Below, in pieces: positions 13,964 through 55,229 of a DNA stretch of 64,000 nt; position 1 is the stretch's first letter; each line of letters begins with the position of its first letter. The stretch is from the IMG/VR virus record IMGVR_UViG_3300011253_000949, positions 1 to 64,000 of that record; one strand, given 5' to 3'. The notes beneath the pieces are model-generated. The model made no database searches. It was not told the DNA's origin and was given only the letters and a program-made list of their open reading frames with translations. Made by a program: the position numbers and the translations under genes. This DNA comes from a virus.

Positions 13964-16900
13964 ATGTCTGAACTTGATCGCATCGACTCTGATTACTTCT
14001 CAGGGCGGTTGGACTTTGGTGATGGACGGGATGCACCGGTTCCCACTTCTCCTGTTCAGCAGAAGATGCAAACGATCAAAGACAAGACCTCTGCCAAGAA
14101 GATGCAGATGGCTGGGGATGATTACTTCAAAGCATTGGCTGTTGCAGATCAGCAAGGCAACGATCTGGGTGAAGATTCTGAGATGGTTCAGGACTTCAAC
14201 ACGCTCGACGATCTGACACTCATGTACAAGTACGGCGAGACAGCAATTCAGTCTCGTATGAACTTCCTCAATGCAGGACGTGAAGCAAACCGTGTCAGCA
14301 GCCTGGAACGTGACTGGGGTGAAGTTGCTGGTGACAGTGCCATTGGGGTAGCTCAGGGCGTTGTGGGCATGGGTACAGGCATTGTGCAAGGTGCCTTGGT
14401 AGCCAACGACGCTTTGAACACCGGTGTTGAATGGCTCACAGGAACTGAGTTTGCTGAACCAGTGGCTCCCCTATTTGCTGAGCTGACTGCCAAAGGTAAT
14501 GAATGGGCCAACAGCTTTAAGTCTGATCGGTATCAAGAGAAGAGCAAAGAGATGGCTTTGATCCAAAGTCTTGATGCTCAAGAGAACCAACGTCTGTACG
14601 ATGAGGATATTGCCAAAGGTGCATTGGGCGCAGGCTTTCGTAAGTTTGTCCGTGATGCTGGAGACACCATCGGAAACTATGCACAGAGCCCAACAATGGT
14701 TGGAGACATCGCTGCTCAAGGTGTTGGCTCTCTGGCTGGTTTTGGTGTGCTGGCAAAAGTCATGGGTAAAGCTGGAGCTGTCAAAGAACTTGTTGCCGGT
14801 GGCATGACCAAGAAGCAGGCTCTTTCCGTTGTGAACTCTGGAGCTGCAAAGGAGATTGTCCGTAAAAATACGATCGCTGCTGTACCCATTGTGAACGGTG
14901 CAGTCGAAGGTGGTAGTGCTGCCAGCTCTGCTCAGTTTGAGATCATGAGCAAGTCAGAAGAAGAGCTGACCGGCATCGAAGAATATGATGCAATGCGGGC
15001 AGATGGTCTGACACATCGACAAGCACAAAAAGAACTCGCCAACACAGCTGGTCAAGTCAGTGGTGTGATCGGTGGAGCTGCTGGCTTTGTGGTTGGTAAA
15101 GCATTGGATCCAGCCTTTGAAGCCAACCCCATGAAAGCTCTGAAAGGCAAAGGTGCAGGTAATGCACTGGCAGCCTCAGGCAAGACGATCGCAACAGAGA
15201 CCCTGGAAGAAGGCGTCACAGAGACTGCATCGACCATCGCCAGTAACGTAGGTCAGAATGTTGCAGGTCTGGACGTAGACCCTTTTGAAGGCGCTGGTGA
15301 GGCATTTGCCACAGGTGCCATTGGAGGTAAGGTAACGGCCGGCACAGTACAGGCACCTGGGCTTGCAAAAGCTGCTTTGGGAGCTGCAGGACAAGGTGCA
15401 GTCAAGGCTGTCGGTGCTGCTGTTGAAGCTGGTGCTGAGAGAGGCAATAAAGCCATCAAAGCTGGTGAAGACAAGAACCGGAATGAACTGGGAGTGGCTG
15501 CATCAGCTGCTGCTGAGACCATTCTGGACACCACCCCACAGGACACCGCACCAGATGGTGTGGAGTCAGCTCAAACCGTTCTCAGCAAGAAGATCACCGA
15601 TAACTACTATGTCTCCGATGAGGCAGATGCTCAGCTCATGAATGCAGAGATGTCTGGAGACGGATTTATCAAACTCAGAGAGCAGCGCAAAGCTGCAGGT
15701 CTGTCAGAGAAGTTTAGCCAACATGATGTTGTGAATGTCCTTGGTTCCACCTTGATGGACAAGAAAGCAACAGGCGTAAACAAGCAGCTTACTGCGGTCA
15801 GTCTCCTGAGTGCCTATGATGAAGTCCGTAAGATGACCTCAGATGAGGCCAAGGCTGCAATGGCTGAGCTGGGTAAAGACAACCCAACTGCACAGGACTT
15901 TGCCAAGATCCAGAAAGCCACAAATGAGCTGGAGAACACCGCGGCAATTCTTGAAGCCAAACTGCAGATGCAGACGATCACACAAGAAGATTTGAAAGCA
16001 TGGATCGGATACGATGTAGCTGGAACTGCAAAGCCTGATGATACCCAGGTTGAGTTTGTGGATCTGGTGACACGGTACAATCCAGGCATCCTGACAGTGA
16101 GCCAGTATGATCAGATTTTGGAGCAGCGCAAAAGTGGCTTGAACCCTAAGAGCTCCATTCTCATGAAGAGCCTGAAAAGCACACGTGAGATCGTAGCTGA
16201 CATCCAAGAAGCAACTCAGACCAAAGCAGCGATCAACGAAAGCACACAAGGCAAAGAGAGCAACTATAAGCCTGACTCGAAGATGGTCAGCATGGATGTG
16301 AATGTTGAAGGCAACCGGAACAACAGCGGTAAATCTATTCTGCAGCACCGTGCAGACATCATAGATGCTGTAGCCACCGGCCGTACAAAGGATGCGCGAA
16401 CAGCTTTGCGTGACATGTATGAGTTTACCAGAAGCCAGATCAACAAAATGATTGCGCTGAACACATCAGCACAGGCCTATGATCCAGAGACCAAAGCCTA
16501 CAAGAAGGTACGTTTCGATGCGTACAATCCTGACAAAGGCATCCGGTACAAGACAGACAAGAAGCAGTCTCCTTTCTCGGATCCAACCAATTCAGCATCC
16601 GTGGTTCAAGCCATGGATACAGCTGCAGACACAAAGCTCTTGGTGAACGCCTATAACAGCCTCCTAGAGACCTATGGTGAACAGCTGGGTAAGCTGCCTA
16701 AAGCCATGGCTGAGAAGCCTCTGGTGGCCCCTGCACTCGATTCATCCATGGCTCTCATTGCACTTCCAGCCCCGGCTACGGTTAGTGATGTTTTGGTTTT
16801 GGAAGACACAAACGAAGGAGCGAGTGCTGTGGCTTCAGCCACGAGCACTGCTTCTGAGAGCGTGACTGATAAAACGGAAACATCGGTAACCAATGACGAG

Positions 16901-19900
16901 GGCGGTAACGTTACATCTACCCTATCCCTCTCAGAAGCAAATGAAGCCCGTCGTGAGGCTAAGTTTGCCAAGGAGCAAGAAGCTGTAGAAAACACCACAC
17001 CAACCCAAGTCACAGCAGTACCTGAAGAAGCTACAGGCGAAACAGCTATGGCTGCTGCTTTGATTGCTGCAGGACTGGTGACAGAAGACACCACACCAGC
17101 TCAAACCAAACCAAAGAAGAAAAAGAAGAAAGCCAAGAAAGCTGAGCAGAAAAAGCTTATCGAGCAGGAAATTCAGGATGCCAAACCGGAAGAAGCTGAA
17201 AGTGCCGCGGAGACATTGGCTGATCTGATGCCTGATCTGGAAACAGACACAGACGGGAACAACTGGTTCCTGAAGTCTTTCCGTCGACTGAAGGACTCTA
17301 AGCTTCTGACACTGAGCAATCCTTTTGCCTGGATCAAAGAGAACTATGACGCCCTGGGTGTTGACCAGAAGGTTGAGTTTGATGACCAGCAAAAAGAAGT
17401 GCTGAGAGACTTCACAGAGAACCAAGCTCCCAAGATCATGCAGCTTGTGAATGGCTATGCAAATGATGCATTGAACGCCACACGTAAGACCAGAGACAAA
17501 AGCAAGATGGGGAATGACATCCCCGCTTCTGGTGTGAAGGTCATTCCTAAGAAGTGGCTGCAGGATCTTCAAAGCACCGGTGATGTGCTCACATACAACA
17601 ACGCTCTGCCCCTGAACTTGGGCAGCCGTGATGAGAAGGATGTCTTCTCACTGGATGAGCGTGTCGCTCAGGCAGCTGTCATGGCTACAACAGAGTGGAT
17701 GCTTCAGAACAGAAGTGTACCTTCTCCTTATCTGAATGATGAAGAGATCGCCAAGCGTCTGGGTATTCGTCAAAAGACTGTGACACAAGAGATGCGAGAT
17801 GCTGTGAATGGTGGCATGTTCATTCAGCGTGCAATCGACGAGATCTCCCGTAAGATCACAAACCTGATGGGCGTGAAAGCACTCAAAGGATCCAGCATTT
17901 CATACACACAAGGTATCCCAAGGGCTCTTGCTGTGAACATGTTGGCTGCTTTCGAAGAAGCTCAGTTCATCAACATCAGTCAGCCTCTGGAATATGTGGA
18001 CAGCAAAGGTGAAAAGGGCTCCTATGCATCAGTAAGCATCCGCAACACTCAGTACACAGAATGGATGGCAGACTCGTTTGTAGGCATGGAAGACATGTTC
18101 ACGTCTGCCTTCCTCCCAAGTAGCTTCAAGGCTCGGATCATTGGTTCTCCTCCAGATCCAGCCAGCGTTGCTCGGACACAGATGCGCAATCCCCTGGTCA
18201 AATTGTCGCCAGAAGAACGCAAGGCAATGGCACGTCTGGAAGCCACACCCTTCAGAGCAAATGCGCCTTTGTGGGCAATGGCTCAAGCACTCGGTAAAGA
18301 CCGGATGGCAAAGCTACGTGGGTTTGTAGAGGTCAACGAAAAGACCATGAACAAGGTGGATCGCAAGAGCATCGAAGGTAAAAATCGATCGATCCTGCGA
18401 GGCTTGAACGGTGTTGCCGGCTACATGGATGAAGCAGGTGGGACAGACAAACCGTTCTTCTTCAAGTGGGGTATGTCTTCCAACGGTCGTTTGTTCCAGC
18501 AAGGTCCGATTACACCACAGGCAGACAAGTATGCCCGTGAGATGATGACAGCCACAAATGCCGTGATCGATATGAATGATCCAACTTACGAGACAATGTT
18601 CTGGCTCACAGTGGCTCAATCGATCGATCAAAAAGTTCATAAGCAAGATGTAGAAGTAAGCGTGCACAATGCTATGGAAGCTATGAAAGATCCAGACGGG
18701 CTAAAGCCCGCCGTGGATCTCATGATGAAGTATCAAACTGAGGGTACGCTGACAGAAGAAGAGATGGACACAATGATGTCTGCCTTCTCAAACAAAGCAT
18801 CTCCTGAGTTCACTGACAAAGTGTTCCATGCTGTAAACGTGGTAGCACGTCTAAATAACGCCTCTGAGAGCGATAAGGCTGCATTCTCAACCTCCCTGTC
18901 CTTGGAAGCAGATGGCGTCACAGACGGCCCTGTGAACGCTGTGGTGCATATGTCCACAGGCGAATTCAAGGCACACCAGCTCAAGATTATGGCAATGGGT
19001 GGCTTGTTCTTCTCTGAAGATCGGATGAGCCTCAACGATTACTGGAAGATCAACAACGTCGATCTGTACACAGAAGCCACGAAAGAAACTGAAAATCAGC
19101 TGTCAGCTGAGATGACTGCTTTGCGTAACTCAGGCACACCTGATGAAGTGTCTCATGCTGAAAAGACAATGCGTGTACTGCATGCATTCCTTCCTGATTT
19201 CAACTTTGCTGAGAAAGCTGAAGACGACGCTGTCATCGACAATGAGAACCTTCCTTTCAAAGACGAAGTAGAAAGCGACGGGGAGTTCAAGCTGGGCAGA
19301 AGCAACAGCAAGAACCCTCTGACAGTGTTCATCTACGGTGCTGGTTTGTCAGGGATCTCCGATAAGATCACCTCCACAGTCACCGGTGAGATCTACAAGA
19401 GGATGTCTGAGATTGCTACACAGCTCGAAGATGGAACCATTACATCCTGGGACCAGCATGAGATCTTTGTGGATAATCCACAGCTGGTGAGCGATCTGAA
19501 CGATGTGTTCAGTGCCACAGTGGAAGAGGGTGACTGGGAAAAAGTAACCCGTTCAGATCTGCGACTGGGTGACATGTTCCGCAAACCTGTAGAGGCATTC
19601 TTCAGGACTGATTGGCTGGATAACCTCCAGTCATCTATCAGCCGTTTCTACACAACAGCTTTGATCACAGCGATCGATCGAGTGACTGGGGGACTGCAAG
19701 AGAACATGCAGATCATGCAGACCACAGCGTCTGTACAGGCCTATATGTTTGAGCAGACATTCAATGATCTGCTGGCTCAGAAGAACGAAGAGCGCAAAGC
19801 AAATACCGAGAAGGGCAGGGGCAACGTTCAACTGTCTGAAGAAGAGATCCAGGCTGTCTTTGAAGAGACTATGAAAGTGGCTCCCATCTACGAGACAGAT

Positions 19901-22900
19901 GCACAGAGCTACCACATTTCAGGTGGTACGCAGTACCAAAGCAAGACACGGATTGCGACCAACTTCAAAGGCAAGCTGTCTTCTGGGATGTCACATGTTG
20001 CACCCTCTGAGCCAAGCGTGAAGATCTCTCCATACCTGACCATTGGTACAGGGGATGGTCGTATGGTGGTGAACATCTACAACAAAGCAGATGGTTCTCT
20101 GGATACGTCATTGGCTGTCTTTGATGGTATCGAGCTGGCAGCTGACAACATCTACACCGGTTCAACACAAGTGAATGAGAGCGTCTATGACGCCTGGATG
20201 AACGGCAACAACTTCCAGACAATGCTGGAAGGCTATGACCGGTTCTTGATGAATGTCGATTATGACAAAATGGAGCCAATGCAAAAGAAGCTGAACAAAA
20301 GCTTTGGAAAGCAAAAAGGCGAAGTGGTTACAGAAGCAGACTTTGCAGCTCTGCGTGTCACGCTTCAAGCCAAGGCAGATGAAGTCCAGGCGCGTAAAAA
20401 CACCATGACAAAGTTCAAGATCTGGGTTGATCACATGGCTGGAGCCAACAGCCCATATGGTAAGGTCGATGAAGATCTGACCGGCATCACGCACGCAAAA
20501 GACTCATACGACACAAGTGCGCTTGAGGCGCAGATGAACGTAATCTTTGAAGAAGAGCTTGCGAAGATCACAGCAGACCGCACCACAGCATCCCAAACCG
20601 AACCAGTTCAGCCAGCCAACGAAGGGCTGCAAACGATGATCGAGCGTGTTGGTTCACCTCTGTATAAGCGGGAGGTACACGAGGTCTCCGGTAAGGTGAT
20701 GAAGAAGTTCTTCTACAAGTCGAAAGACCAAGGCTACAACAACGAGCAGAGCCAAGTGTTTTGGAAGGTGATGAACCGCCCAGAAAACAAGGATCTCGAT
20801 GATTGGCGGTTCTACTTTGGTTCTGCTGAAGAGCTCAACCGTCTGAAGGCTGACGTGTTCAAAGACCTGAACCAAAAAGGCATTGGGAATGGTCAGGCAT
20901 TTGCCGGCACAAAGGTAGCATTCATTGCCAATGCTTCACCTGAGACAATGCTGCACGAAGCCTTGCATGCCATGACGGCCGCACATCTACAGAACTACTA
21001 CACCGATTCAAGCAACACAGCTGATTATGTGAAAGATGCAATTGTACGTCTTGAGGATCTGTTGAAAGAGTTCCGCGGATTGGACCTACAGTTTGAGCCT
21101 ACAAATGTTCAAGTAGCTGCCAGAGAACTGATGGACAGCATCAACATTGCAGAAGCTGAGAGCTTGGATGCTCGTGCAGAAGTGATGGGTGAATTCCTGT
21201 CATGGACCTTGAGCAATCAAAAGCTGATTGGACTGACCAAGAAGGTCAAAGTCTATGGTCCATTGCACAAGTTGGCTTACAAAGTGCTGACAGCAATAAA
21301 AGAAATGTTTGGCATGTCGAAGTCCTTCAAAGGGACAGACATGTTCTCCAACATCAGGTTCAACACAGAGATCCTGACAGGTACGCCAGCACAGTTTGGT
21401 GCAGACATCGTACAGGAGCAGCGCTTCACAGCCTCAGAGCCAGTGGCTCATGTGGAGAGTGCCTATGTAGAGAAGCTCACTCAGACGCTCAAAGCCAACC
21501 TGCTAGACTCAGGCCTTGGTCCATTGGATGCAGCCAGGGAGAATACAGAACGTCAGCTGCAGCTGGAGAGAAATGCTACCAAGGCAGTGAACCAAGTAAA
21601 TGCACGTGGCGACTGGGGTATGAACCAGCGAGAAGCTCAGGCTTTTAAAGCTGTGCATGCAACAATGATGACCGGTTATGGTCTGAATGCTGCAGCAATG
21701 CGTGAAGCAAACAATGTGTATGTGCATGCGGTCAAGAACCTGAAGGTCGATGACTTCTTGATCGATCCGGATACAGCAACAGTTGCAGAGCGTAAGACTG
21801 CCAAGCGACAGCTTAAGACACTGACAGGTGGGACTGGTATCCGCAAAGATGCCAATAACCGATCTGATCTGTTGGCAACATTCGTGGCTTTGAGCCAAGT
21901 AAGTGAGCCAATGAAGCTGGCACTTGGTCGACTGACCATTCCATCAAAGACAAGCAAGATTGAAAAGAGTGTGGATGGGGTCATTGATGGCCTTGCAGAC
22001 ACGTTGACCAATTACCTGAGTGAGCTGCCGATGAGCAAGGGAAGCACACAGCAGAATGCTGCTCAGGCGATGAACATGCTGTCAGCCACACTGACCACCA
22101 TCAACAAAGAAAATGACATGCTGGCTAAGGTAGACGGCCAAGCTTGGATGATGCGTGCAAATGATCTGATTGTAGAGAAGGCAGGCAAGCTTACGAAAAA
22201 AGCATCTGAGGCTGTAAAGGCAAAGATTGCGGCATCAAGTACAGGACCAAAGAAGACAGGTTTGCAGGTAGCCAACTTGGTTCTCTCATTTGGGTCAGCC
22301 AAAGACAGTGATACAGCTCAGGAATTCTTGGTCTCTGCGCTGAACAACACACCACGCTTTGAGAGCCTGAAGAAGATCTACAGCGACCTGAGAGGCATGA
22401 CTCAAGAGAACGCGTCACTGATGCGTCTCATCAACCCTGTGAAGTCTGTCGTAGATGCAATGCGTCAGGAGTATCGTGAGCGTATCCCTGAAGAGTTTGC
22501 CAAGCAGTTCAGCCGCAAACTGAAGAAGGAAGAATGGGTGGGCATGTACCATGGCATTCTCAAGACAGATCTGACTGCTCTTGGTCGGAAAGAGACACTT
22601 GATCTGATCAAGGATCCAAGCTCGATCCAAGCACGTATTGCTGCTGAAGAGGGCAACCTTGGTTCAAAGAATGTGCAGCTCTACAAAGAGAAGTCTAAGG
22701 CCTTGGCACATTACATGGTCACCGGTGAAGTCACATCGACAAACCTGCTGCCAAATGCAGAAGCCATTGCCCGTCTGCTCAATGAGCGTAATGTCATTGG
22801 TTCCACAAACAGTGGTCTGGTGAGATCGATCGATCGATTGGTCAGCTTGTATGCTTTCGAGATGACAGACCAAGCTTCCAAAGACATGATGACAGAGCTG

Positions 22901-24784
22901 ATGAACTCAGATCCAAAAGACGAAAGAGCCATGGGCTTGATCGTTGGATATGCCAAAGCAAACAACAGCCTTGAGAACAACAAACGTCCAAGCGGCCGTG
23001 AAGGCAATGTTGCAAAGTACAACGGCTTGAAAGGCTATGCACCGGCAACAGCTGAGAGCGGTCAGAGCCTGATGGTTGTACCAGACAGCCAAGCAGCAGA
23101 CCTGATCAAAAAAGGCTACACACGGATCGGTGACTATGATGGTGACAGCTCTGAGAACTTCCGTGGACAGCGTGGGTATTACTACTCGTCGGTAGGTGGT
23201 CTGAACACATATCGCCAGGGCATTGCCCAGACAGTGCATGCAACCTGGAAAGGGGTTGATATGCGCAATGGTCAGTCCCGTGTAGGCAACACCGTTGGCA
23301 GTGCCATTGTTGGTTCCAAAGCCCGTCAGGTGAAAAGCACCATAGGACGGCCGCTGAATGGCCTAGCTGCTGGCGAGTACCTCATGCCCATCTTTGACGA
23401 TAAAGGCGCTGTAAGCGGATATCAGCGACCTCTGGCTGCAGATAAGATGGCATTGCTGAAGAAGGACGAGCACATCGGTCGGATGCTGGGGGTATGGACC
23501 GGACGGATTGTGGAGGAGAATGCCGCCGATGGGTTCAACATGGAGCTGCTGAATACCCTCAAAGAGATCCACACAAAGCATAAGCTGGCGGGTCGGGACA
23601 GTGAGTTTGTGAACCTTGCAGATCCTGAGCTGAAAGATCCCGTCTACAAGGATGCGTGGAACACGATGGGATGGAAGATGAAGGAAGATGCAGCGGAGGT
23701 ATTCGGACGGGCCGACTACTTCCCTGTCAGGCGTGACATGATTGATGACGCGTTGGGATACCGTGCTGCATCTATAACGGATCCATGGACAGGGATTACG
23801 CGTTGGAGTCCTAAAACACAGAAGCTTCTGCGGGATACTGCAACGGCGATTATGGGCGTGAACGCCTATAAATATATGAAGATGGCTGAGAATGGGATTG
23901 GGGGCGTTGTCTCTTATGCCAAGACCAACATCATCATTCGATCAGTTGTTGTGATGTATGAGAACATCGTCTCGAACGGACTGCATCTGCTGACACATGG
24001 CATTGGACCGGTGACAATGGCAAAGGCTATGAGAACCAAGTTCTTGGAGATCACCACCTATGTGAAGAACAAAGAAGAGATGCTGTCTCTCAACGTTCAG
24101 CTCTCTGCTGTGATCAACGATGCTTCTAAAGCCAACCCCATCAAGGCACGTTTGATTGCATTGGAAGATGCCAACAACCAGCTGAGCATCAAACCATTGA
24201 TTGACGCAGGGGAGTTCTCCACGATCTCGGAAAGCTTGACCGAAGAGGATCTGGCAGCACGAGATGGTAAGATTGCTGAGCTGGTCGAGAAGGCAGTAGA
24301 CAAGCTGCCAGGAGTGGCAAGAACCATTGGTAAGAATGCCATCATCAGCAAAGACACTGCCCTGTTCAGGGTGTTGAACCGGATGGTTCAGTATGGTGAC
24401 TTTGTAGGCAAAGCAGTCTTGTATGATCACCTGATCGAGAAGCGTGGCAAGACCAAGCAAGAAGCTATGGATACGATCTCAGAAGAGTTCGTGAACTATA
24501 ACCGGTTGCCTGGACGAACCAGAGACGCACTGGAGAGCAATGGTCTGCTGTGGTTCTTCAACTACAAGCTTCGTATCCAGAAGATTGCCATGAACGCTGT
24601 GAGAGAGCGTCCTGTGACAGCCTTGCTGTGGGCTGGAGGGGTAGGACCAGCCATGGACATAGACTCGGTGTTCTCAGGCTCTCTGGGAGGCTCCATTGTG
24701 GATGGTCGGATTGGGTATGCGATTGGACCTGAGATGGGATACAACGGATTGTTCCTGAACCCATGGCTCAACTTGGCAAATTGA
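13964..24784 (+). CDS. giant virion RNA polymerase (N4 gp50-like)
   Basis: 3606 residues; N4's is 3500. Packaged in the virion, injected with DNA, and transcribes early genes from hairpin promoters. Single-subunit T7-family motifs lie in the central third, as in N4: T/DxxGR-like SSNGR at 1505-1509, a motif A candidate EADGVTDGP at 1648-1656, motif B R1779...K1783...Y1791-G (SNSKNPLTVFIYG), and motif C AVFDG with Asp2054. The spacing matches N4 with an offset of about 90-115 residues. A Lys-rich low-complexity linker (KKKKKK, about residue 1050) separates the N-terminal region. A zincin-like HEALH lies at 2331-2335. Last gene of the late operon, facing a bidirectional terminator. Confidence 0.92.
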   Translation: MSELDRIDSDYFSGRLDFGDGRDAPVPTSPVQQKMQTIKDKTSAKKMQMAGDDYFKALAVADQQGNDLGEDSEMVQDFNTLDDLTLMYKYGETAIQSRMNFLNAGREANRVSSLERDWGEVAGDSAIGVAQGVVGMGTGIVQGALVANDALNTGVEWLTGTEFAEPVAPLFAELTAKGNEWANSFKSDRYQEKSKEMALIQSLDAQENQRLYDEDIAKGALGAGFRKFVRDAGDTIGNYAQSPTMVGDIAAQGVGSLAGFGVLAKVMGKAGAVKELVAGGMTKKQALSVVNSGAAKEIVRKNTIAAVPIVNGAVEGGSAASSAQFEIMSKSEEELTGIEEYDAMRADGLTHRQAQKELANTAGQVSGVIGGAAGFVVGKALDPAFEANPMKALKGKGAGNALAASGKTIATETLEEGVTETASTIASNVGQNVAGLDVDPFEGAGEAFATGAIGGKVTAGTVQAPGLAKAALGAAGQGAVKAVGAAVEAGAERGNKAIKAGEDKNRNELGVAASAAAETILDTTPQDTAPDGVESAQTVLSKKITDNYYVSDEADAQLMNAEMSGDGFIKLREQRKAAGLSEKFSQHDVVNVLGSTLMDKKATGVNKQLTAVSLLSAYDEVRKMTSDEAKAAMAELGKDNPTAQDFAKIQKATNELENTAAILEAKLQMQTITQEDLKAWIGYDVAGTAKPDDTQVEFVDLVTRYNPGILTVSQYDQILEQRKSGLNPKSSILMKSLKSTREIVADIQEATQTKAAINESTQGKESNYKPDSKMVSMDVNVEGNRNNSGKSILQHRADIIDAVATGRTKDARTALRDMYEFTRSQINKMIALNTSAQAYDPETKAYKKVRFDAYNPDKGIRYKTDKKQSPFSDPTNSASVVQAMDTAADTKLLVNAYNSLLETYGEQLGKLPKAMAEKPLVAPALDSSMALIALPAPATVSDVLVLEDTNEGASAVASATSTASESVTDKTETSVTNDEGGNVTSTLSLSEANEARREAKFAKEQEAVENTTPTQVTAVPEEATGETAMAAALIAAGLVTEDTTPAQTKPKKKKKKAKKAEQKKLIEQEIQDAKPEEAESAAETLADLMPDLETDTDGNNWFLKSFRRLKDSKLLTLSNPFAWIKENYDALGVDQKVEFDDQQKEVLRDFTENQAPKIMQLVNGYANDALNATRKTRDKSKMGNDIPASGVKVIPKKWLQDLQSTGDVLTYNNALPLNLGSRDEKDVFSLDERVAQAAVMATTEWMLQNRSVPSPYLNDEEIAKRLGIRQKTVTQEMRDAVNGGMFIQRAIDEISRKITNLMGVKALKGSSISYTQGIPRALAVNMLAAFEEAQFINISQPLEYVDSKGEKGSYASVSIRNTQYTEWMADSFVGMEDMFTSAFLPSSFKARIIGSPPDPASVARTQMRNPLVKLSPEERKAMARLEATPFRANAPLWAMAQALGKDRMAKLRGFVEVNEKTMNKVDRKSIEGKNRSILRGLNGVAGYMDEAGGTDKPFFFKWGMSSNGRLFQQGPITPQADKYAREMMTATNAVIDMNDPTYETMFWLTVAQSIDQKVHKQDVEVSVHNAMEAMKDPDGLKPAVDLMMKYQTEGTLTEEEMDTMMSAFSNKASPEFTDKVFHAVNVVARLNNASESDKAAFSTSLSLEADGVTDGPVNAVVHMSTGEFKAHQLKIMAMGGLFFSEDRMSLNDYWKINNVDLYTEATKETENQLSAEMTALRNSGTPDEVSHAEKTMRVLHAFLPDFNFAEKAEDDAVIDNENLPFKDEVESDGEFKLGRSNSKNPLTVFIYGAGLSGISDKITSTVTGEIYKRMSEIATQLEDGTITSWDQHEIFVDNPQLVSDLNDVFSATVEEGDWEKVTRSDLRLGDMFRKPVEAFFRTDWLDNLQSSISRFYTTALITAIDRVTGGLQENMQIMQTTASVQAYMFEQTFNDLLAQKNEERKANTEKGRGNVQLSEEEIQAVFEETMKVAPIYETDAQSYHISGGTQYQSKTRIATNFKGKLSSGMSHVAPSEPSVKISPYLTIGTGDGRMVVNIYNKADGSLDTSLAVFDGIELAADNIYTGSTQVNESVYDAWMNGNNFQTMLEGYDRFLMNVDYDKMEPMQKKLNKSFGKQKGEVVTEADFAALRVTLQAKADEVQARKNTMTKFKIWVDHMAGANSPYGKVDEDLTGITHAKDSYDTSALEAQMNVIFEEELAKITADRTTASQTEPVQPANEGLQTMIERVGSPLYKREVHEVSGKVMKKFFYKSKDQGYNNEQSQVFWKVMNRPENKDLDDWRFYFGSAEELNRLKADVFKDLNQKGIGNGQAFAGTKVAFIANASPETMLHEALHAMTAAHLQNYYTDSSNTADYVKDAIVRLEDLLKEFRGLDLQFEPTNVQVAARELMDSINIAEAESLDARAEVMGEFLSWTLSNQKLIGLTKKVKVYGPLHKLAYKVLTAIKEMFGMSKSFKGTDMFSNIRFNTEILTGTPAQFGADIVQEQRFTASEPVAHVESAYVEKLTQTLKANLLDSGLGPLDAARENTERQLQLERNATKAVNQVNARGDWGMNQREAQAFKAVHATMMTGYGLNAAAMREANNVYVHAVKNLKVDDFLIDPDTATVAERKTAKRQLKTLTGGTGIRKDANNRSDLLATFVALSQVSEPMKLALGRLTIPSKTSKIEKSVDGVIDGLADTLTNYLSELPMSKGSTQQNAAQAMNMLSATLTTINKENDMLAKVDGQAWMMRANDLIVEKAGKLTKKASEAVKAKIAASSTGPKKTGLQVANLVLSFGSAKDSDTAQEFLVSALNNTPRFESLKKIYSDLRGMTQENASLMRLINPVKSVVDAMRQEYRERIPEEFAKQFSRKLKKEEWVGMYHGILKTDLTALGRKETLDLIKDPSSIQARIAAEEGNLGSKNVQLYKEKSKALAHYMVTGEVTSTNLLPNAEAIARLLNERNVIGSTNSGLVRSIDRLVSLYAFEMTDQASKDMMTELMNSDPKDERAMGLIVGYAKANNSLENNKRPSGREGNVAKYNGLKGYAPATAESGQSLMVVPDSQAADLIKKGYTRIGDYDGDSSENFRGQRGYYYSSVGGLNTYRQGIAQTVHATWKGVDMRNGQSRVGNTVGSAIVGSKARQVKSTIGRPLNGLAAGEYLMPIFDDKGAVSGYQRPLAADKMALLKKDEHIGRMLGVWTGRIVEENAADGFNMELLNTLKEIHTKHKLAGRDSEFVNLADPELKDPVYKDAWNTMGWKMKEDAAEVFGRADYFPVRRDMIDDALGYRAASITDPWTGITRWSPKTQKLLRDTATAIMGVNAYKYMKMAENGIGGVVSYAKTNIIIRSVVVMYENIVSNGLHLLTHGIGPVTMAKAMRTKFLEITTYVKNKEEMLSLNVQLSAVINDASKANPIKARLIALEDANNQLSIKPLIDAGEFSTISESLTEEDLAARDGKIAELVEKAVDKLPGVARTIGKNAIISKDTALFRVLNRMVQYGDFVGKAVLYDHLIEKRGKTKQEAMDTISEEFVNYNRLPGRTRDALESNGLLWFFNYKLRIQKIAMNAVRERPVTALLWAGGVGPAMDIDSVFSGSLGGSIVDGRIGYAIGPEMGYNGLFLNPWLNLAN

Positions 24785-33284: not shown

Positions 33285-33884
33285 TCACTTATGGTTTGGT
33301 TGATTTTTAGCACCATTTATCCTCGCTCTTTGTACGCGTTGAAAACGTAGGGACTCATTTAAATCTCCTTCAATGCCTAGCTCTTTTGCCATGCGTCTAA
33401 GTTTTACAGACAGGTAAGGAACTTTATACGGAACACGTTGTGAAAGTGACCAATACGATTCTCCATTAATGACAGATTGCAAGCAGTCAAAGAATTCATC
33501 TTTGGTCATTCGATTGGTGTATGTCCGTAGTCCAGTATCGGCAGCATGTTGGCTGTTACCTGAAGAGTTTACCCACTCAAGATTGTGTGTTGAGTTATCA
33601 AAACGGTTCCCATTTTTATGGTTAACTTCAGACAATCCTAGAGAATTTGGGATGTGGGCTTCAGCCACTAAACGATGGACGTAGTGTGATGTGCCTTTCC
33701 CATATTTCCACAAACTGACCTGAAGATATTCAACTTGTTTATTTGAAGAAGGACGCAAAATTTTGCCTTTAAAGGGATAGATGGATCCATCACGTCCTAA
33801 TGTTGACCGATCTACTGAACGTACCGTACCAAGCGTAGAGACTTCGTACAGCCCTTCATAATTAACTACCGGTAAGTAGCTCAT
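33285..33884 (-). CDS. NUMOD4-HNH homing endonuclease splitting the DNA polymerase gene
   Basis: One hundred and ninety-nine residues. An N-terminal NUMOD4 pattern (YLPVVNYEGLYEVSTLGTVRS) is followed by the HNH core VHRLVAEAHIPN...EVNHKNGNRFDNSTHNLEWV and a C-terminal DNA-binding region. The ATG lies inside the last codons of the polymerase N-terminal gene (overlap 23 bases) and the TGA lies four bases before the proposed start of the C-terminal part, so the ORF fills the insertion and leaves no room for an intron core. Insertion boundaries share AGT. Analogous to T4 MobE, which split a topoisomerase gene. Confidence 0.85.
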   Translation of the reverse strand: MSYLPVVNYEGLYEVSTLGTVRSVDRSTLGRDGSIYPFKGKILRPSSNKQVEYLQVSLWKYGKGTSHYVHRLVAEAHIPNSLGLSEVNHKNGNRFDNSTHNLEWVNSSGNSQHAADTGLRTYTNRMTKDEFFDCLQSVINGESYWSLSQRVPYKVPYLSVKLRRMAKELGIEGDLNESLRFQRVQRARINGAKNQPNHK

Positions 33885-35874
33885 ACAGTTCTGCTCCTTT
33901 CATTGATTTGCCCAGATACTCTACATCCTCGTCAGAGTGGAAGTAAATGTTGGTGTTACCTACTTTCGCTTTATAGCAAGTTGCATTTTCAGGGGCTATT
34001 TCGATATCAGGCATACGCTCAGCAAAGTAAGACTGAGCTCTCAGACAGTGTCCGTCAAACCCATCCAAGTAGACTTTTAGCTTGTTAGGATCTTTGGTCG
34101 TGAGAGCGGAGATCATGTCTTCGAGAGAGTTGAAATCCAATCCAATCATGAGCCAACCGTCAGGAGCAGTGAAGCAGCTCTTGATCAGCTTGGCATACTT
34201 GGTTCCTGTGGCAGGAATGGTTTGAAGGTTTGGATTTGAAGAGCTCAGTCGACAGGAAACCGTACCACCCAGGTTGAAGTTACCGAAGAGGTAATGGCAT
34301 CCATCTGGACCTTCTACAGCACTCTCCAACGCAGGGATGAAGGTGGTGTAGATTTTGTCCACTGATTTGTAATCCAACAGAGCATTGATGAGATCAATGA
34401 TGTGAGAATCTTCAGTGTAGGCTTTGAGCTTTTCAAGCACTTCAGCTTTGGTGGCTGGTTGTTTGGTTTTGGTTCTTTCAATGACCGGTAGACCAAGATG
34501 TTCATGCAGAAGGTTCTGCAGCTGATCTGGACTGTTGGGATTGAATTTGTCGGGGTAGTCAGCCAGAACAACACGCTTGATTTTAAGCTCATTGTTCCGC
34601 TTCTCTACCCACTTTTCAGCAAGCATGTAGGTGAAATCTTGGATGTGCTGTTCTTGATAGATACGCTCAAGTGCACTGTCTCGATCCACCTCCAAAAGAA
34701 CCTTGGCCTGAGCCACTTGGTTCATATCGATAGACATACCTGTCAGCTGCATTTGGATGATGTCGATGATTGCTGGCTTGAAGATCTCTTCGTAGAGTTC
34801 CAGCTGATCATCTGCCACCATCTTATCCCACCACTTATGGTACACGTACCACGTGGAGCATGCGTCGATGAGATTGTACTCAAGCAACTCTGGCAAAGGT
34901 ATCTTGGTGATGTCCTTGATCTCTTCAACGGCATAGTTGCCGGCAAACTCTTGAGCCTGATCTTTGAGACCCAGCTTGTTACCGGCACAAGTGTTGGTGG
35001 CGAGATAGGAGATGAGCTTGGTATCATGCCAATTTGAGAGCATGATCTCGAGACCATTGAGCAGACCTTTGGTATCTATCAAATGCTCCATGAAGAGCTG
35101 GTAGATTAAGACTGTGGCATCGTAGCTGATGTTGTGAAACAGGAGAGGTTGCTCAAACTCACAAAAGAATTTGACGAGGAGTTTGCGTACAGCCTCACCA
35201 TGAATTCCCATGTCGATGGCAAAGGCAATGCCTTCATGTTGGTTCCAAGCAAAGCTGATGGTGCCAAGACCTGCACTGTAGTGCTTGAGAGAAAAGGCCT
35301 CAATATCACAGGCCAAAGGACATTGCATGTCCATAAGCTTCTGGAGCCATACAGCGATGTCAGCAGGGGTGTGAGGGTACTCAGCAGTCTTGAGGATGTC
35401 ATGCCCTGGTTCTTGGTAGGTGCCTTTCATATGGCTCCACAGAGCGTCTAATGCAGAGGCAATACGTACCCGGGTAGGTGTCGGGTTGTAGAAGACCTGA
35501 CGGTAGTTTGGCACAAAGATGACATTGAACTGACCAGCCATGCTGGCAGGGAACTTGTTTGGAAGGACGTAGCCAAGATAGGGATCTACCTTAGCCACGC
35601 CTACCAGAGTCTTGAAGTAATCGCTGTCAGTGACAAGGATGTACTTGGTGTCGATCTCACTGAGCAATTCGAGCATGTCAGTGAGAAAGACTTTCTGATC
35701 AACTACCTTGGTTTTCTTGCCAGTTGTGTAGAGCTGGTAAGCAATGACATCTTCAGGATCGATGAGAGAAGGGTCGAGGTACTCTTTGGTCATACCTGCA
35801 CTATCAAGCTTGGGAGCCAAAATGCAGATGGGGTAGGTTGAGTTCTCGTGATCTGTAAATGTCTGGAAGTCCAT
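33862..35874 (-). CDS. DNA polymerase N-terminal part, family A (N4 gp39-like)
   Basis: Six hundred and seventy residues. Proofreading exonuclease motifs: ACDIEAFS (Exo I, about residue 190), FHNISYDATVLI (Exo II), YNLIDACSTWYVY (Exo III). Then TVSCRLSSSNPNLQTIP and polymerase motif A LDFNSLEDMI (about 580). It ends artificially at ELLTGS by running into the HNH insertion; the natural protein continues as SEVTEISVLRHD... in the next ORF. With the C-terminal part the total is about 900 residues, close to N4 gp39. Start overlaps the preceding stop (TAATG). Confidence 0.88.
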   Translation of the reverse strand: MDFQTFTDHENSTYPICILAPKLDSAGMTKEYLDPSLIDPEDVIAYQLYTTGKKTKVVDQKVFLTDMLELLSEIDTKYILVTDSDYFKTLVGVAKVDPYLGYVLPNKFPASMAGQFNVIFVPNYRQVFYNPTPTRVRIASALDALWSHMKGTYQEPGHDILKTAEYPHTPADIAVWLQKLMDMQCPLACDIEAFSLKHYSAGLGTISFAWNQHEGIAFAIDMGIHGEAVRKLLVKFFCEFEQPLLFHNISYDATVLIYQLFMEHLIDTKGLLNGLEIMLSNWHDTKLISYLATNTCAGNKLGLKDQAQEFAGNYAVEEIKDITKIPLPELLEYNLIDACSTWYVYHKWWDKMVADDQLELYEEIFKPAIIDIIQMQLTGMSIDMNQVAQAKVLLEVDRDSALERIYQEQHIQDFTYMLAEKWVEKRNNELKIKRVVLADYPDKFNPNSPDQLQNLLHEHLGLPVIERTKTKQPATKAEVLEKLKAYTEDSHIIDLINALLDYKSVDKIYTTFIPALESAVEGPDGCHYLFGNFNLGGTVSCRLSSSNPNLQTIPATGTKYAKLIKSCFTAPDGWLMIGLDFNSLEDMISALTTKDPNKLKVYLDGFDGHCLRAQSYFAERMPDIEIAPENATCYKAKVGNTNIYFHSDEDVEYLGKSMKGAELYELLTGS

Positions 35875-49221: not shown

Positions 49222-52200
49222 TTAGCTGAGTGCATAATCGGCATTAACGATCTGCTGAGAGATGTCACCAAACTTAGTGACCACCGTGTCCTCACCCACA
49301 ATCTGACTTACGATAGACTGAAGCAGGTTGCTCTGTGCGAGTTCACTGAGGATCGTGTTGTATTGCTTACGCAGGTCATTCCCGTAGTTGGGATGAACGC
49401 GGAAACCATTTGTTAAACGAGACGTTACTCTCGCCCTTCAGATTCCATGATTGTAGTGGAATCCATACTTAGCTTCAGCAGCTTGGCGAGCTGCTTTTGC
49501 ATCATCTATGTTGTCATATGAGCCGAGAGCGATTTGCTTACGGTTCACCATGATGTAGGCGTGATACTTCCCAGAGGGAAGGACACGAACACCAGTGACA
49601 CCAGACGTGTTGCTTTTCTTTTGGCTCATGTTGAGTTGGTTTAGCCTGCTAGATACTTCTCGCAGATTGCTCCAGCGGTTATTGGATCGATCGTGGTCAA
49701 GATGATCCACTTGATCAGGCCAAACACCTATTTGCATAAGCCAGATGATACGATGTGCCAGATAGTCTTTTCCGCCTATAGAAACAGATAAGTAACCTTG
49801 ACTGTGTAGATAAGTCGCAAGGTCTCCTTTGGCTCCTTTAATCGTATCAAGTTTGTGACACAGCTCACCAGAGGCAGGGGTATACTCATAAAGGTTGAGT
49901 AGGCTTGTCTGGGTGAACTCACGAAGATTGACGATACGGTGCGTACATTTTTTACATAGATGTCCGATCCGGCTTTTCTTCGCATCATATAAACCAACCT
50001 CAAAGTCAGAATGGCATTGAGCACATTCACACAAAACTTTGAATTTTGTTAGTTTCATCTTGATCTGCCACGTTTGCAACATTGTATGTACCTTGATTAA
50101 GCCATGCACGTTGTTTTTGTGCTTAGCCTAACCTTGGCAAGAAGTCCACGGCTTTCACTGTGGTATCGGACTATATCATCACCCTTCTGCAGAGCAGTTA
50201 GGGGCGAGGCGCTTCGGAGGGGACTTCCCTCTCCTACTCCCTTGCGGGATAGTCTCTGAACCTTCAATGCAGTTTGGACCTGCAAAGCTTGGCTGCTGAT
50301 TGGCATAGGATTTCTCCCTTAGCTTTCCAGCAATTCACCTCGTTCTTCGACAGGGATTTCTCCCTGAAGGACCGTTAATTCAGTCATGGATGGAGAGAAC
50401 AGGGAAGGGGTGCTTTGGCATGTTGTCGAGCAAGTCAAAGAGTTCTTCCAAGGGAGCATAGTGGATTGAATCTTCGTCGATGTAGTCCACGATCCGAGCA
50501 GAAAGGAAGCCTGTCTCGTGGAAGTTCTTTGCCAGGGTCCGAACCATTGAGATGTTTGGGCTGATCTTATCTGCAGGACGTGAGCTGTGAGACAGAGCAA
50601 TAGCTGCAAAGCACAAACCCATAGCCTTTACCATTTGGCTCCGATCATAGGTACAGCGCCGTGAGACTTCACGAACGATCATACCATCAATGGAGTGGGT
50701 GATGTTGGCCGGCAGTGACTTGCCGGTTTCAGTGGGTGTGTTGATCTTGGTGACAACATCGTAGGGACGTTCCAAGAAGTGAACTGTCTCATGTTGAAAA
50801 TCCATGACTTTGGTTTTGACATGGAAGTTGTCAGGAAGAGTCCACTCATAGACCAGAGCTTCAGGATTCCACAGAGCCAAGAGAGCTTCGTTGAGTTGCC
50901 AGATGCCAGGGGCTTCTTCGTTCATGACTTGCAAGAACATGTCGAGCATTTCCCCTTCACCAAATACCTCTTTAGGGACAGCCTTAGAGCCATACAATGC
51001 GTTTTGTTCAACAAGGGTTCGTTACTCCCTTGCCCGTCCACTTGCTCATGTGTGGACCGCTACATGTTACCATGCAGACCAGACTATATCTTCACCCTCT
51101 TACGAGGGGTTCTGCGCTTCGAGCCACTTGGCTCTACTCCCTCACGGGATAGTCGTTGCACGTTCCGATACTTCAACCACTCTACGACACATCTCAATAA
51201 AATCGAGAGTTGTCATATCACCCTTGGCTCTGTTTGCGGCCCAAGATAGCCACTGTATGTTGCCTTTTACATATCCCAATTCAGGATATATTTTGTCCAA
51301 TGAAGGACAAAGAGGATGTTTCTTCTCAATCACAAATGGGCAACCTGTGGCAGCACATTTGAGGTCTTGAAGATTGATTAGCTCGTAGAGATAGTCCTCA
51401 TCAATATCAGGGGTCACCTGATTGTATTTGCTGGCTCTGCTTTTGGCTTCAGTGATCCTCCCTCGTATGAGAGACATCAGCTTTCTATCCTCTGGCGGAA
51501 CCTTCTTAAGTTTACCTGTCCCTCGATACCCTTGACCATGTTTCTCACTGTAGGCTTTTCTATATGCACGAGCTTTTGCTGCGTTACATGGCTTACAGTA
51601 CGAATGGTAACTTTGGGACGTCGGGTGTTTGAAGTTGTCAGACTTCTTCCAATTTTCATTTAATTTGGCTTTGGTAAACTCTTGAAGAGGTTTCGTCTCA
51701 CCGCATTCTTTGCAGCTACGAGTGGTTGATTGATCCATAGAAGCATTCCTTAATTGCTTATACGGATTTGTATTGGCTTCGCTCAGGATTGTCCACAGCT
51801 TGACCTGTTGGGAGGTTCCCTGAATTCACAGAATTGCGTATCACCAGTTACCCGGTGAGTGACCCCTTTATGTTAAGGTCATGATAGCTTGCTTCACATC
51901 TGCTCGATCGATCTTAGACACGGTTCCTAGGCGTGCACACATGATCTCATAGATGTTGGTGTAGAGATCCTCCCGATCACCTGTGCTGATGACATTGCAC
52001 AGAGAGGCTGACTTGCTGCATCCAACCAGGATAGCCAGAATTTGAGCCCCAGAGGCTGTGGCATCAAGGCTGATGGGGTAGGAGATAGGCTTGCCCTGTG
52101 AGGCTGTTCTGTAGGCCTGTACGCCAGCGTAGTAGAGGGCTGGTTCTTCTGCTTGATCAATGAGATTTTTAAGCAGTGGTTCATTGGTCTGGAACCATGA

Positions 52201-52287
52201 GATACGATCAGTCCAGCTTTCTTTGTCGAGACCAAAGTTACCAGCAATGTCGATCATCAGATATTCTGTAGGTGTGAAAGTTTGCAT
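49222..52287 (-). CDS. middle RNA polymerase subunit RNAP2 (N4 gp16-like), interrupted by two group I introns
   Basis: Join on the minus strand of 52287..51876, 50999..50382 and 49406..49222 gives 1215 nt and 404 residues, the size of N4 gp16. It supplies the catalytic motifs of the two-subunit polymerase: motif A SLDATASG (Asp75), motif B R128-x3-K132...SLYGSK with Tyr140, and motif C SIHDCF with Asp343. Intron 1 cuts inside motif B after Thr137; intron 2 cuts right after the catalytic Asp343. Both junctions obey the group I rule (exon ends in U, intron ends in G) and restore the frame exactly. Ribosome site TAGGAGCC. Confidence 0.9.
49407..50381 (-). ncRNA. group I intron 2 in RNAP2 (at motif C)
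   Basis: 975 nt. Core elements on the minus strand include GAGACTATCCC...GGGAGTAGG and GATATAGTCC (P3/P7 partners) about 150-220 bases from the 5' end, as in the T4 td family. Exon ends CATGACT, intron ends AAATG, restoring HDCF. Carries an HNH gene in its 3' part. Confidence 0.85.
49438..50082 (-). CDS. HNH homing endonuclease with AP2 domain (intron 2)
   Basis: About 214 residues from ATG 50082 (AAGG upstream; ATG 50109 is an alternative). N-terminal CxxC pairs (CECAQC, CKKC), an HNH core [37 protein letters not shown] and a C-terminal AP2-like DNA-binding region ([18 protein letters not shown]...). It would cut intron-less RNAP2 alleles and spread the intron. Confidence 0.85.
   Translation of the reverse strand: MLQTWQIKMKLTKFKVLCECAQCHSDFEVGLYDAKKSRIGHLCKKCTHRIVNLREFTQTSLLNLYEYTPASGELCHKLDTIKGAKGDLATYLHSQGYLSVSIGGKDYLAHRIIWLMQIGVWPDQVDHLDHDRSNNRWSNLREVSSRLNQLNMSQKKSNTSGVTGVRVLPSGKYHAYIMVNRKQIALGSYDNIDDAKAARQAAEAKYGFHYNHGI
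51000..51875 (-). ncRNA. group I intron 1 in RNAP2 (at motif B)
   Basis: 876 nt. The 3' part has a td-like core: CAACGACTATCCC, GGGAGTAGAGCC and GGTGAAGATATAGTCTGG. The upstream exon ends in T after ATGACC and the intron ends AACG, giving MT-SLYGSK. It carries an endonuclease ORF whose end runs into the core. Confidence 0.85.
51142..51738 (-). CDS. zinc-binding homing endonuclease (intron 1)
   Basis: One hundred and ninety-eight residues. CxxC motif [13 protein letters not shown], then YHSYCKPCN, and a C-terminal CAATGCPF...[32 protein letters not shown], the conserved part of a His-Me-finger (HNH-type) endonuclease family with SLDRI...GY..GN. Its stop codon lies inside the intron core, near the P7 sequence. 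Confidence 0.75.
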   Translation of the reverse strand: MDQSTTRSCKECGETKPLQEFTKAKLNENWKKSDNFKHPTSQSYHSYCKPCNAAKARAYRKAYSEKHGQGYRGTGKLKKVPPEDRKLMSLIRGRITEAKSRASKYNQVTPDIDEDYLYELINLQDLKCAATGCPFVIEKKHPLCPSLDKIYPELGYVKGNIQWLSWAANRAKGDMTTLDFIEMCRRVVEVSERATTIP

Positions 52288-53824: not shown

Positions 53825-53875
53825 TCACTCCTTGTTCAATGTTTCTTCTTCAGCAAACTGGATACAGGCTTTGTT
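53825..53875 (-). pseudogene. duplicate 3' end of the RNAP1 gene
   Basis: Seventeen codons read NKACIQFAEEETLNKE then TGA, matching the true end of RNAP1 (NKACVEFADAEPLNKE, stop TAA at 54405). It lies directly after the HNH stop (overlap of two bases) with no start of its own. So the HNH gene sits between two versions of the RNAP1 tail. Confidence 0.85.
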
Positions 53876-54368
53876 ATCTTCCGTGGTTGGGATGGTAGTC
53901 ATAGAGTTGCTCCATTTCTTTCCGGGCTTCACAGGCTAGGCGAAACGCTTCTTCTTCTCCGTATTTGGAGATCGAGAAAGTTTTGATTTTCTGCTTGCCG
54001 TCTTTGTCATGGCATGTGGCGCGCCACATACTAATTTTTTGATTGCCTCGGCGTGTGGTTTCCCAGTGACTTACGCCTTGGACCCCAGAGGCATTATCCT
54101 GACGTTTGGCGGCATTTCTTCTTTGTCCCTTGAGAGGAATACAACGAAGGTTTTCAAAACGGTTATCTGTTCGGATACCATTAATGTGATCGATCTGATG
54201 TCCCTTTGGAATGGGGCCATATTTCTGTTCCCATAGCCATCTATGCAGGTACATCACGCGGTTATTCCGTGAGATACGTATGTACCCGTTTTTACCGTTT
54301 GCAGCGGATTCTGGATAATGCTGGGCAAGCTCTTCAGCAGAGCCTGCCCATTTGTTTTTGTCAGTCAT
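53874..54368 (-). CDS. free-standing HNH/AP2 endonuclease at the RNAP1 end
   Basis: One hundred and sixty-four residues. YLHRWLWEQKYGPIPKGHQIDHINGIRTDNRFENLRCI is the HNH core; SGVQGVSHWETTRRGNQKI... is an AP2-type domain. Ribosome site AAGGAGATC. Flanked by two versions of the RNAP1 3' end, so its insertion brought a substitute gene end. Confidence 0.85.
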   Translation of the reverse strand: MTDKNKWAGSAEELAQHYPESAANGKNGYIRISRNNRVMYLHRWLWEQKYGPIPKGHQIDHINGIRTDNRFENLRCIPLKGQRRNAAKRQDNASGVQGVSHWETTRRGNQKISMWRATCHDKDGKQKIKTFSISKYGEEEAFRLACEARKEMEQLYDYHPNHGR

Positions 54369-54404: not shown

Positions 54405-55229
54405 TTATTCTTTGTTCAATGGCTCTGCATCAGCAAATTCCACACATGCTTTATTCCAGTCTGATCCCTGATACGAAATGTGATAGCCTTGGCTGTATGT
54501 CCGGCCGCGTTTGTCGTATTTGTGTGTGAGCCAGAAGCGATCGCCTTGAGCCAGCAATGCTTTGATCACACCACGAGAGGATTTGTCGTACTTCTCAAAT
54601 GCTTTGACACGTTTGCGGAAGTCTTCTTTGCTTTCACCATCTTTGGGTTTGTCGAGGTTCTTCCATTGGTGTTGTACAAACGAAACCACATCTGTGTTCA
54701 GGCTTAGAGGAATACGATTCATCCGGTTGATGTGATCCAGACAGACATCTTCAGCATGGTGATTGTCTTTGAGGATGATCGAACCTGAGATGGTTTGATA
54801 TCCCGTCTGCAGGTTGTTTCGTACCGGTACTGGTTCTTCGATCATAGGCAGTGGGTACTGAAGCATTGCCATACGTGTTTTGACATCTTGGGTGATGTCA
54901 TAGGTCATCACGATGGTTTGGGTCATTTCATCCCAATCTACGAAGTCTTTCTCCGCGGCGATCAGGATCATGTCTGCGCATGCCTGTGCAGGGTTCTCTT
55001 CCAACTCGAAGTGTTTCTTCAAGATGGCTACGAGGACAGGGATGCCGGCACGTTTGTGCAGCACGAGTTGGACAAGGAGATCCAATCCAAAGGAGATGGG
55101 GATCTCTGCTTCGATGAGAGCATCAGAGAAGTTAGCCTGGATGAACTCATATTTGATGAGGGACATTGCTTGGTGCTTTGAGAACAGCTGTTCCATTGCA
55201 ATCTGTGAAGTGAATTCGAGATCAGTCAT
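54405..55229 (-). CDS. middle RNA polymerase subunit RNAP1 (N4 gp15-like)
   Basis: Two hundred and seventy-four residues, close to N4 gp15. Holds the T/DxxGR motif as DKRGR (239-243) in HKYDKRGRTYSQGYHISYQG, while the catalytic motifs A, B and C are in RNAP2; the two together equal one T7-type polymerase. It transcribes middle (replication) genes. Overlaps the SLOG gene stop (ATGA). Its last 16 codons were probably replaced by an HNH-linked copy. Confidence 0.88.
   Translation of the reverse strand: MTDLEFTSQIAMEQLFSKHQAMSLIKYEFIQANFSDALIEAEIPISFGLDLLVQLVLHKRAGIPVLVAILKKHFELEENPAQACADMILIAAEKDFVDWDEMTQTIVMTYDITQDVKTRMAMLQYPLPMIEEPVPVRNNLQTGYQTISGSIILKDNHHAEDVCLDHINRMNRIPLSLNTDVVSFVQHQWKNLDKPKDGESKEDFRKRVKAFEKYDKSSRGVIKALLAQGDRFWLTHKYDKRGRTYSQGYHISYQGSDWNKACVEFADAEPLNKE

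Follow-up and report, generated by a model that had tools for sequence, protein, structure and literature searches.

The locus examined here raises the question of how a phage RNA polymerase gene that is broken at two catalytic motifs could give rise to a single enzyme. The DNA studied, hereafter the window, comprises 64,000 nucleotides (positions 1 to 64,000) of virus record IMGVR_UViG_3300011253_000949, whose full length is 66,613 bases. Its gene set is N4-like, as evident by an RNAP2 that, once spliced, matches phrog_2051 (E 7.9e-152), an RNAP1 (54405-55229) that matches phrog_2166, and a family A DNA polymerase. An open reading frame of 3606 codons (13964-24784) is, from its size and position, presumably the virion RNA polymerase. 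The RNAP2 coding sequence lies in three segments:

51876..52287, minus strand: RNAP2 exon 1, 412 nt, codons 1-137 and the first base of codon 138
50382..50999, minus strand: RNAP2 exon 2, 618 nt
49222..49406, minus strand: RNAP2 exon 3, 185 nt, running to the stop codon

These segments join in frame to encode 404 amino acids and a stop codon, and the product contains both VKQAIMTSLYGSK and SIHDCFRVHP. A preliminary description of this DNA had proposed that removal of 51875-51000 and 50381-49407 restores a 404-residue RNAP2, and these boundaries are exact to the base. The predicted junctions in the spliced RNA are CAUGACCU^CAUUGUAUGG and CAUGACU^GUUUCCGCG. N4 RNAP2, for which structures have been solved (6dt7, 6dt8 and 6dta), likewise has 404 residues, and the spliced product aligns with it (PDB 6dt7 chain B) from residue 1 through 404 (E 4.7e-128). 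This full-length match, with motifs B and C included, identifies the product as an N4-type RNAP2 (Schitoviridae). We consider it very probable that the gene is interrupted by two mobile self-splicing group I introns that are excised to yield one 404-codon message.

The inserts and their principal features are as follows:

51000..51875, minus strand: intron 1, 876 nt, group I, in motif B (MT/SLYGSK), site B2
51733..51767, minus strand: predicted hairpin whose stem includes the endonuclease start codon of intron 1
51142..51738, minus strand: intron 1 homing-endonuclease gene, 198 aa, matching phrog_1035 'endonuclease VII' (E 3.1e-34)
51058..51166, minus strand: 3′ half of the intron 1 core (P7, P7.2, P3′, P8, P9)
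49407..50381, minus strand: intron 2, 975 nt, group I, in motif C (IHD C/FRVHP)
49438..50109, minus strand: intron 2 HNH homing-endonuclease gene, 223 aa, GTG start, the longest open reading frame, downstream of the core

Both introns are inserted in phase 1, with codon 138 broken by intron 1 and codon 344 by intron 2, each after its first base, and these positions agree with the proposed location of the introns in motifs B and C. In both cases the upstream exon ends in U and the intron in G (51000 for intron 1, 49407 for intron 2), as the U...G boundary rule invoked in the preliminary description demands. The P1 helix of intron 1 has six base-pairs and ends in U.G, and that of intron 2, which also appears in the Rfam alignment, pairs GACU with GGUC by eye.

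The check suggested in the preliminary description, a covariance-model search with the Rfam group I family, succeeded for intron 2 and fell short for intron 1. Intron 2 matches the full RF00028 model at 76.1 bits (50391-50146; cut-off 50). Intron 1 scores 38.1 bits (E 5.7e-8), which is below the cut-off because the endonuclease gene sits within the core. P6 and P7 of the core are separated by this gene, whose 3′ end is overlapped by the 3′ half of the core, and the 5′ half is misaligned by Rfam into the endonuclease gene.

An alignment of 13 cores from the motif B introns of relatives, with the endonuclease genes removed, provided a measure of covariation. Pairing is observed in 91.6% of 477 cells, against 30-44% (maximum 43.7%) in slid structures, a contrast that is helped by the naming of helices P3, P4, P7, P7.2, P8 and P9 and a terminal helix on the window's own sequence. 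Double changes occur at 25 of 38 pairs, and none of 500 shuffles reaches any of the five measures. P7 is invariant in this alignment, and P8 and the terminal helix are paired in 66.7% and 62.8% of cells, respectively.

We also built a covariance model, R1, of the 3′ half of the core from 11 relatives, leaving out the window and its closest relative, L064. Over the 64 kb, R1 finds intron 1 at 89.4 bits (E 1.8e-19) and intron 2 at 52.2 bits (E 1.2e-10), and returns no other match at E<0.1 (the third-best has E 0.17). In 20 other loci R1 has 11 matches, ten of which fall at annotated or mapped intron-like inserts; the exception (L015, 4825-4942) lies beside the ATPase gene of phage ZC08, an interrupted gene treated in passages of PMC5418858. 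The five of these 20 loci that served as intron-free RNAP2 controls (L006, L022-L025) yield no R1 match. The RF00028 match of intron 2, the R1 matches of both inserts and the covariation in the 13 cores together confirm the earlier assignment of both inserts to group I. Related group I cores were also observed in two DNA polymerase genes, at L204 3548-3653 (Acinetobacter phage nACB1, motif B region) and at L019 3486-3604 (phage Bas89).

The complete cores and their covariation also bear on a different reading of the locus, in which endonuclease genes were inserted without splicing and three polypeptides form RNAP2, as in some split phage enzymes. Exons 1 and 2 do have separate open reading frames, and endonuclease insertion is discussed in passages of PMC5418858 as a path to split RNA polymerases. 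However, exon 3 has no listed open reading frame of at least 50 aa, and the breaks fall inside codons 138 and 344 rather than between codons, so that a gene expressed in pieces strikes us as very improbable beside two self-splicing introns.

The shortfall of intron 1 in the Rfam search is common to its kind, as evident by the fact that the motif B RNA polymerase introns at none of 12 loci (L004, L007-L011, L018, L020, L027, L033, L059, L064) reach the RF00028 gathering score. The best of them, the endonuclease-free intron of L059, scores 49.8 bits. Because these introns miss the gathering score, routine annotation calls the genes split. A protein family of 149 positions, phrog_20599, matches RNAP2 residues 1-135 only, and it may be a family of N-terminal RNAP2 pieces cut by introns.

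Each intron carries an intact homing-endonuclease gene, which marks both of them as probable homing introns. The intron 2 enzyme matches PF13392 HNH_3 (E 1.8e-16) and phrog_99 (E 6.8e-59), and an alternative internal ATG start is possible for its gene. A Pfam search of the intron 1 enzyme gives no match and no HNH domain. Comparison with L064, whose endonuclease gene differs from that of intron 1 by dN 0.103 and dS 1.361 (dN/dS ~0.08), points to purifying selection on the intron 1 endonuclease, as for a protein in use.

The same comparison separates the history of the intron from that of its host gene. Intron 1 and the L064 intron are 81.5% identical over 874 aligned bases, whereas exon 1 is 69.2% identical and exons 2 and 3 are 60.5% identical. 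Among the best 80 loci ranked by similarity of RNAP2 exon 2, L064 is listed 44th. Intron likeness therefore does not track host likeness, and the spread of the intron has not followed the kinship of the hosts. An intron of the same kind that lacks an endonuclease gene, 325 nt in length, is found in L059.

That one or both introns are splicing-dead, the allele defective or the assembly chimeric seems less credible still: although the sequence is metagenomic only, a second contig (IMGVR_UViG_3300011254_000585), which may not be an independent sample, carries the same 5001 bp at 100% identity, helices P1, P3, P4, P7 and P9 of intron 1 are intact, and the first endonuclease appears to be maintained by selection. 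The identical contig, together with the same architecture in relatives, led us to rule out an assembly artefact.

In intron 1, the endonuclease start codon is predicted to pair with upstream bases with a probability of 1.0. Start codons are paired in this manner, in an upstream hairpin, in 10 of the 12 introns examined, intron 1 included; JWAlpha is one of the two misses, and there a downstream ATG had been chosen. This arrangement recalls the control of intron endonucleases in phage T4.

Mapping of the interruptions in relatives shows that RNAP2 is a target in at least four regions, namely after G80 and in motif B, HSIDG and motif C, with sub-sites 8 nt apart in motif B and 3 nt apart in motif C. 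Site B2 (codon 138, phase 1) is used by the window, L064 and XC38, and Vibrio phage 1.261.O is interrupted within 1 nt of it. Site B1 (codon 135, phase 2), which is 8 nt upstream of B2, is used by JWAlpha, HN02, L033 and L059, and less firmly by L027, phi 1 and pVco-5, for which there are competing junction solutions. Related introns also lie in the B1 region of two T7-type RNA polymerases, those of Drael01 and LLY, with the LLY boundary uncertain by 1-2 nt. Codon 344, phase 1, is occupied in the window, Moonfish, ZQ2 and ZC08, and MIF8 is interrupted 3 nt downstream. The RNAP2 of FBPa1 is interrupted after G80, and that of pYD6-A at about codon 237 (HSIDG) and in the motif C region. The active-site codons of phage RNA polymerases, of both N4 type and T7 type, are thus shown to be repeated intron targets.

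Column entropy over 79 related loci identifies residues 342-348, in motif C, as the most conserved 7-residue window of RNAP2. Among its 404 residues, C344 ranks 46th, T137 119th and codon 138 169th. The preliminary description went too far in stating that the two most conserved codons of the polymerase had been hit. Its broader reasoning, that homing elements prefer invariant sites, is supported, and group I introns are reported in passages of PMC2814812 to favour conserved sites statistically.

We propose the following mechanism, which has been read from the sequence and its relatives. The two introns would be of different lineages, each equipped with its own homing endonuclease. Each enzyme most likely targets an active-site motif, cutting the intron-free RNAP2 gene of an N4-like phage that infects the same cell, and the intron would be copied in during repair templated by the intron-bearing phage. 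After transcription, each intron would fold, P1 would form between the internal guide and the end of the exon, and self-excision would join 412, 618 and 185 nt into the 404-codon message. The start-codon hairpin probably limits translation of the intron 1 endonuclease.

RNAP1 and RNAP2 act in N4 middle transcription (according to passages of PMC3915230), and middle transcription, with replication after it, would for this reason wait on splicing. It is plausible that two splicing events delay middle transcription, and slow or regulated splicing would act as a gate on it.

Introns of this kind are already known; the novelty lies in their joint presence at motifs B and C of a single gene, in the recurrence of insertion sites mapped here for two types of polymerase, and in the blind spot of Rfam. 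The nearest precedents for intron 1 are the Achromobacter phages JWAlpha and JWDelta (NC_023556; PMC3915230), whose RNAP2 is split in motif B by an insert that encodes a homologue of the intron 1 endonuclease (46.7% identity). JWAlpha has a group I core related to that of intron 1. These phages differ from the window in that their interruption, the only intron seen, falls in codon 135 (phase 2), 8 nt farther upstream. The word intron is absent from the accessible text of PMC3915230, in which the authors asked in 2014 whether the interrupted RNAP2 is still functional. The answer, in outline, is that RNAP2 is interrupted by group I introns. Acinetobacter phage XC38, Vibrio phage 1.261.O (within 1 nt) and L064 (IMGVR 3300038701_001167) share the motif B site of the window, and no motif C intron was found in their examined stretches.

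For intron 2, Pseudomonas phage ZC08, Shigella phage Moonfish and Escherichia phage ZQ2 have a group I intron at codon 344, phase 1 (RF00028, 88.9-91.8 bits), with an HNH endonuclease 44.7-51.6% identical to its homologue in intron 2, but are interrupted in motif C alone in the stretches examined. The ZC08 insertion was published as an endonuclease insertion, as passages of PMC5418858 record. The RNAP2 gene of Pseudoalteromonas phage pYD6-A contains a pair of group I introns (74.1 and 81.7 bits), one of them in the motif C region, but the other lies near codon 237 and not in motif B. Drael01 and LLY share a related core and endonuclease in motif B, but in a single-subunit, T7-type polymerase and at the site of JWAlpha rather than that of the window. 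More distant is PhiPA3 gp210, an HNH endonuclease of a putative group I intron in a phage RNA polymerase gene, directly after the conserved aspartates. PhiPA3 differs in being a jumbo phage with a multi-subunit (beta) polymerase, and passages of PMC11620839 report experiments in which the endonuclease is active and attacks a co-infecting phage. A thymidylate synthase gene with a group I intron in an N4-like phage (PMC5746245) and other N4-like genes suspected of introns (PMC3670811) are likewise mentioned in passages of those sources.

A scan of IMG/VR gave 218 RNAP2 relatives, and among the best 80 motif B is interrupted in seven (L021, L027, L033, L036, L046, L059 and L064); L021 comes from the window's own virus, and L033 and L036 appear to be duplicates of a single virus. 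Motif C is interrupted in one of the same 80 (L021), uninterrupted in 77 and unjudgeable in L049 and L070. We also considered the 60 listed of 524 phage records with an RNAP2, in some of which the RNAP2 stretch was examined, together with 40 listed of 59 records related to the intron 1 endonuclease and 40 listed of 2985 related to that of intron 2. Among the endonuclease relatives listed, we found none besides this virus whose RNAP2 is interrupted by introns at motif B and motif C alike. XC38 is a listed relative for both enzymes, and its examined relative of the second endonuclease lies between other genes. A viral contig search with the intron 2 endonuclease returned only the same virus. Among the stretches examined, the pair occurs in this virus only, and the open-access literature yielded no description of such a pair, nor of RNAP2, intron and Schitoviridae together.

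The family A DNA polymerase gene of the window is also interrupted:

33862-35874, minus strand: first DNA polymerase piece
33884-33285, minus strand: NUMOD4/HNH endonuclease gene splitting the DNA polymerase
33175-33132 (within 33178-33129), minus strand: stop-containing hairpin gap of 44 nt in DNA polymerase motif B

The second open reading frame of the polymerase starts at 33316 and runs for 47 codons up to ...PTFALT. The gap that follows consists of CTC, TGA and a hairpin of ten perfect pairs, after which ACT TAC CAA GGA (TYQG) continues in another frame, whereas N4 DNA polymerase reads FALTYQGTYITLM continuously, without the gap. ACT flanks the gap on both sides. An in-frame TGA directly precedes the ACT at which reading would resume, and no in-frame start codon is present before it. 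Loci L123-L125, at 96% DNA identity, have neither the endonuclease insert nor the gap.

A second phage (IMGVR_UViG_3300048833_000100; L168/L203) has the same layout and a homologous endonuclease with 63% identity. In this phage, 46 codons and ACG are followed by a 42-nt gap (CTC TGA, then a hairpin whose loop is UUCG) and then by ACC TAT CAG; the flanking codons match in their first two bases only, the frame is kept and the gap contains two stops. By eye, the hairpins of the two phages show paired changes at three of ten positions. Of 80 DNA polymerase loci, 71 are uninterrupted at both places. Among the other nine, the gap is present in L122 (the window's virus) and L168, motif B is uninterrupted where translations are shown in L141, L164, L193 and L133, and L142 and L175 could not be resolved. 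The ninth, L138, has in place of the gap a 6-nt in-frame insert with TAG, upstream of TFALTYQG. A pattern scan of IMG/VR for the gap returned the same two viruses only, and no phage record covers it.

The gap and its adjacent homing endonuclease closely resemble the layout of the translational bypass cassette of T4 gene 60, and we lean slightly towards ribosomal bypass, a hop over the gap, as the best reading of these sequences. A third group I intron at 33.1-33.9 kb was rejected, R1 giving no match there and Rfam only sub-threshold, chance-like ones. A complete intein was rejected as well, since its N part of 38 aa and C part of about 26 aa (by eye) are too small. The tail of the first polymerase piece and the head of the second (from 33316) recur in the N4-like contigs L133, L138, L141, L164 and L193, and may represent what is left of an intein or a domain for pairing; the tail of the N-terminal piece has no phage match.

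Whether both replication polymerases of this virus are broken at active-site motifs by endonuclease-linked elements, with RNAP2 mended by splicing and the DNA polymerase by hopping, appears to us about evenly balanced. If this is true, polymerase motif B would be a common battleground on which homing endonucleases force a gap that is then removed by RNA or by the ribosome.

Elsewhere in the window, an HNH/AP2 endonuclease gene (53874-54368, minus strand) sits between RNAP1 and RNAP2, and passages of PMC5418858 place an endonuclease gene likewise between these two genes in phage G7C.
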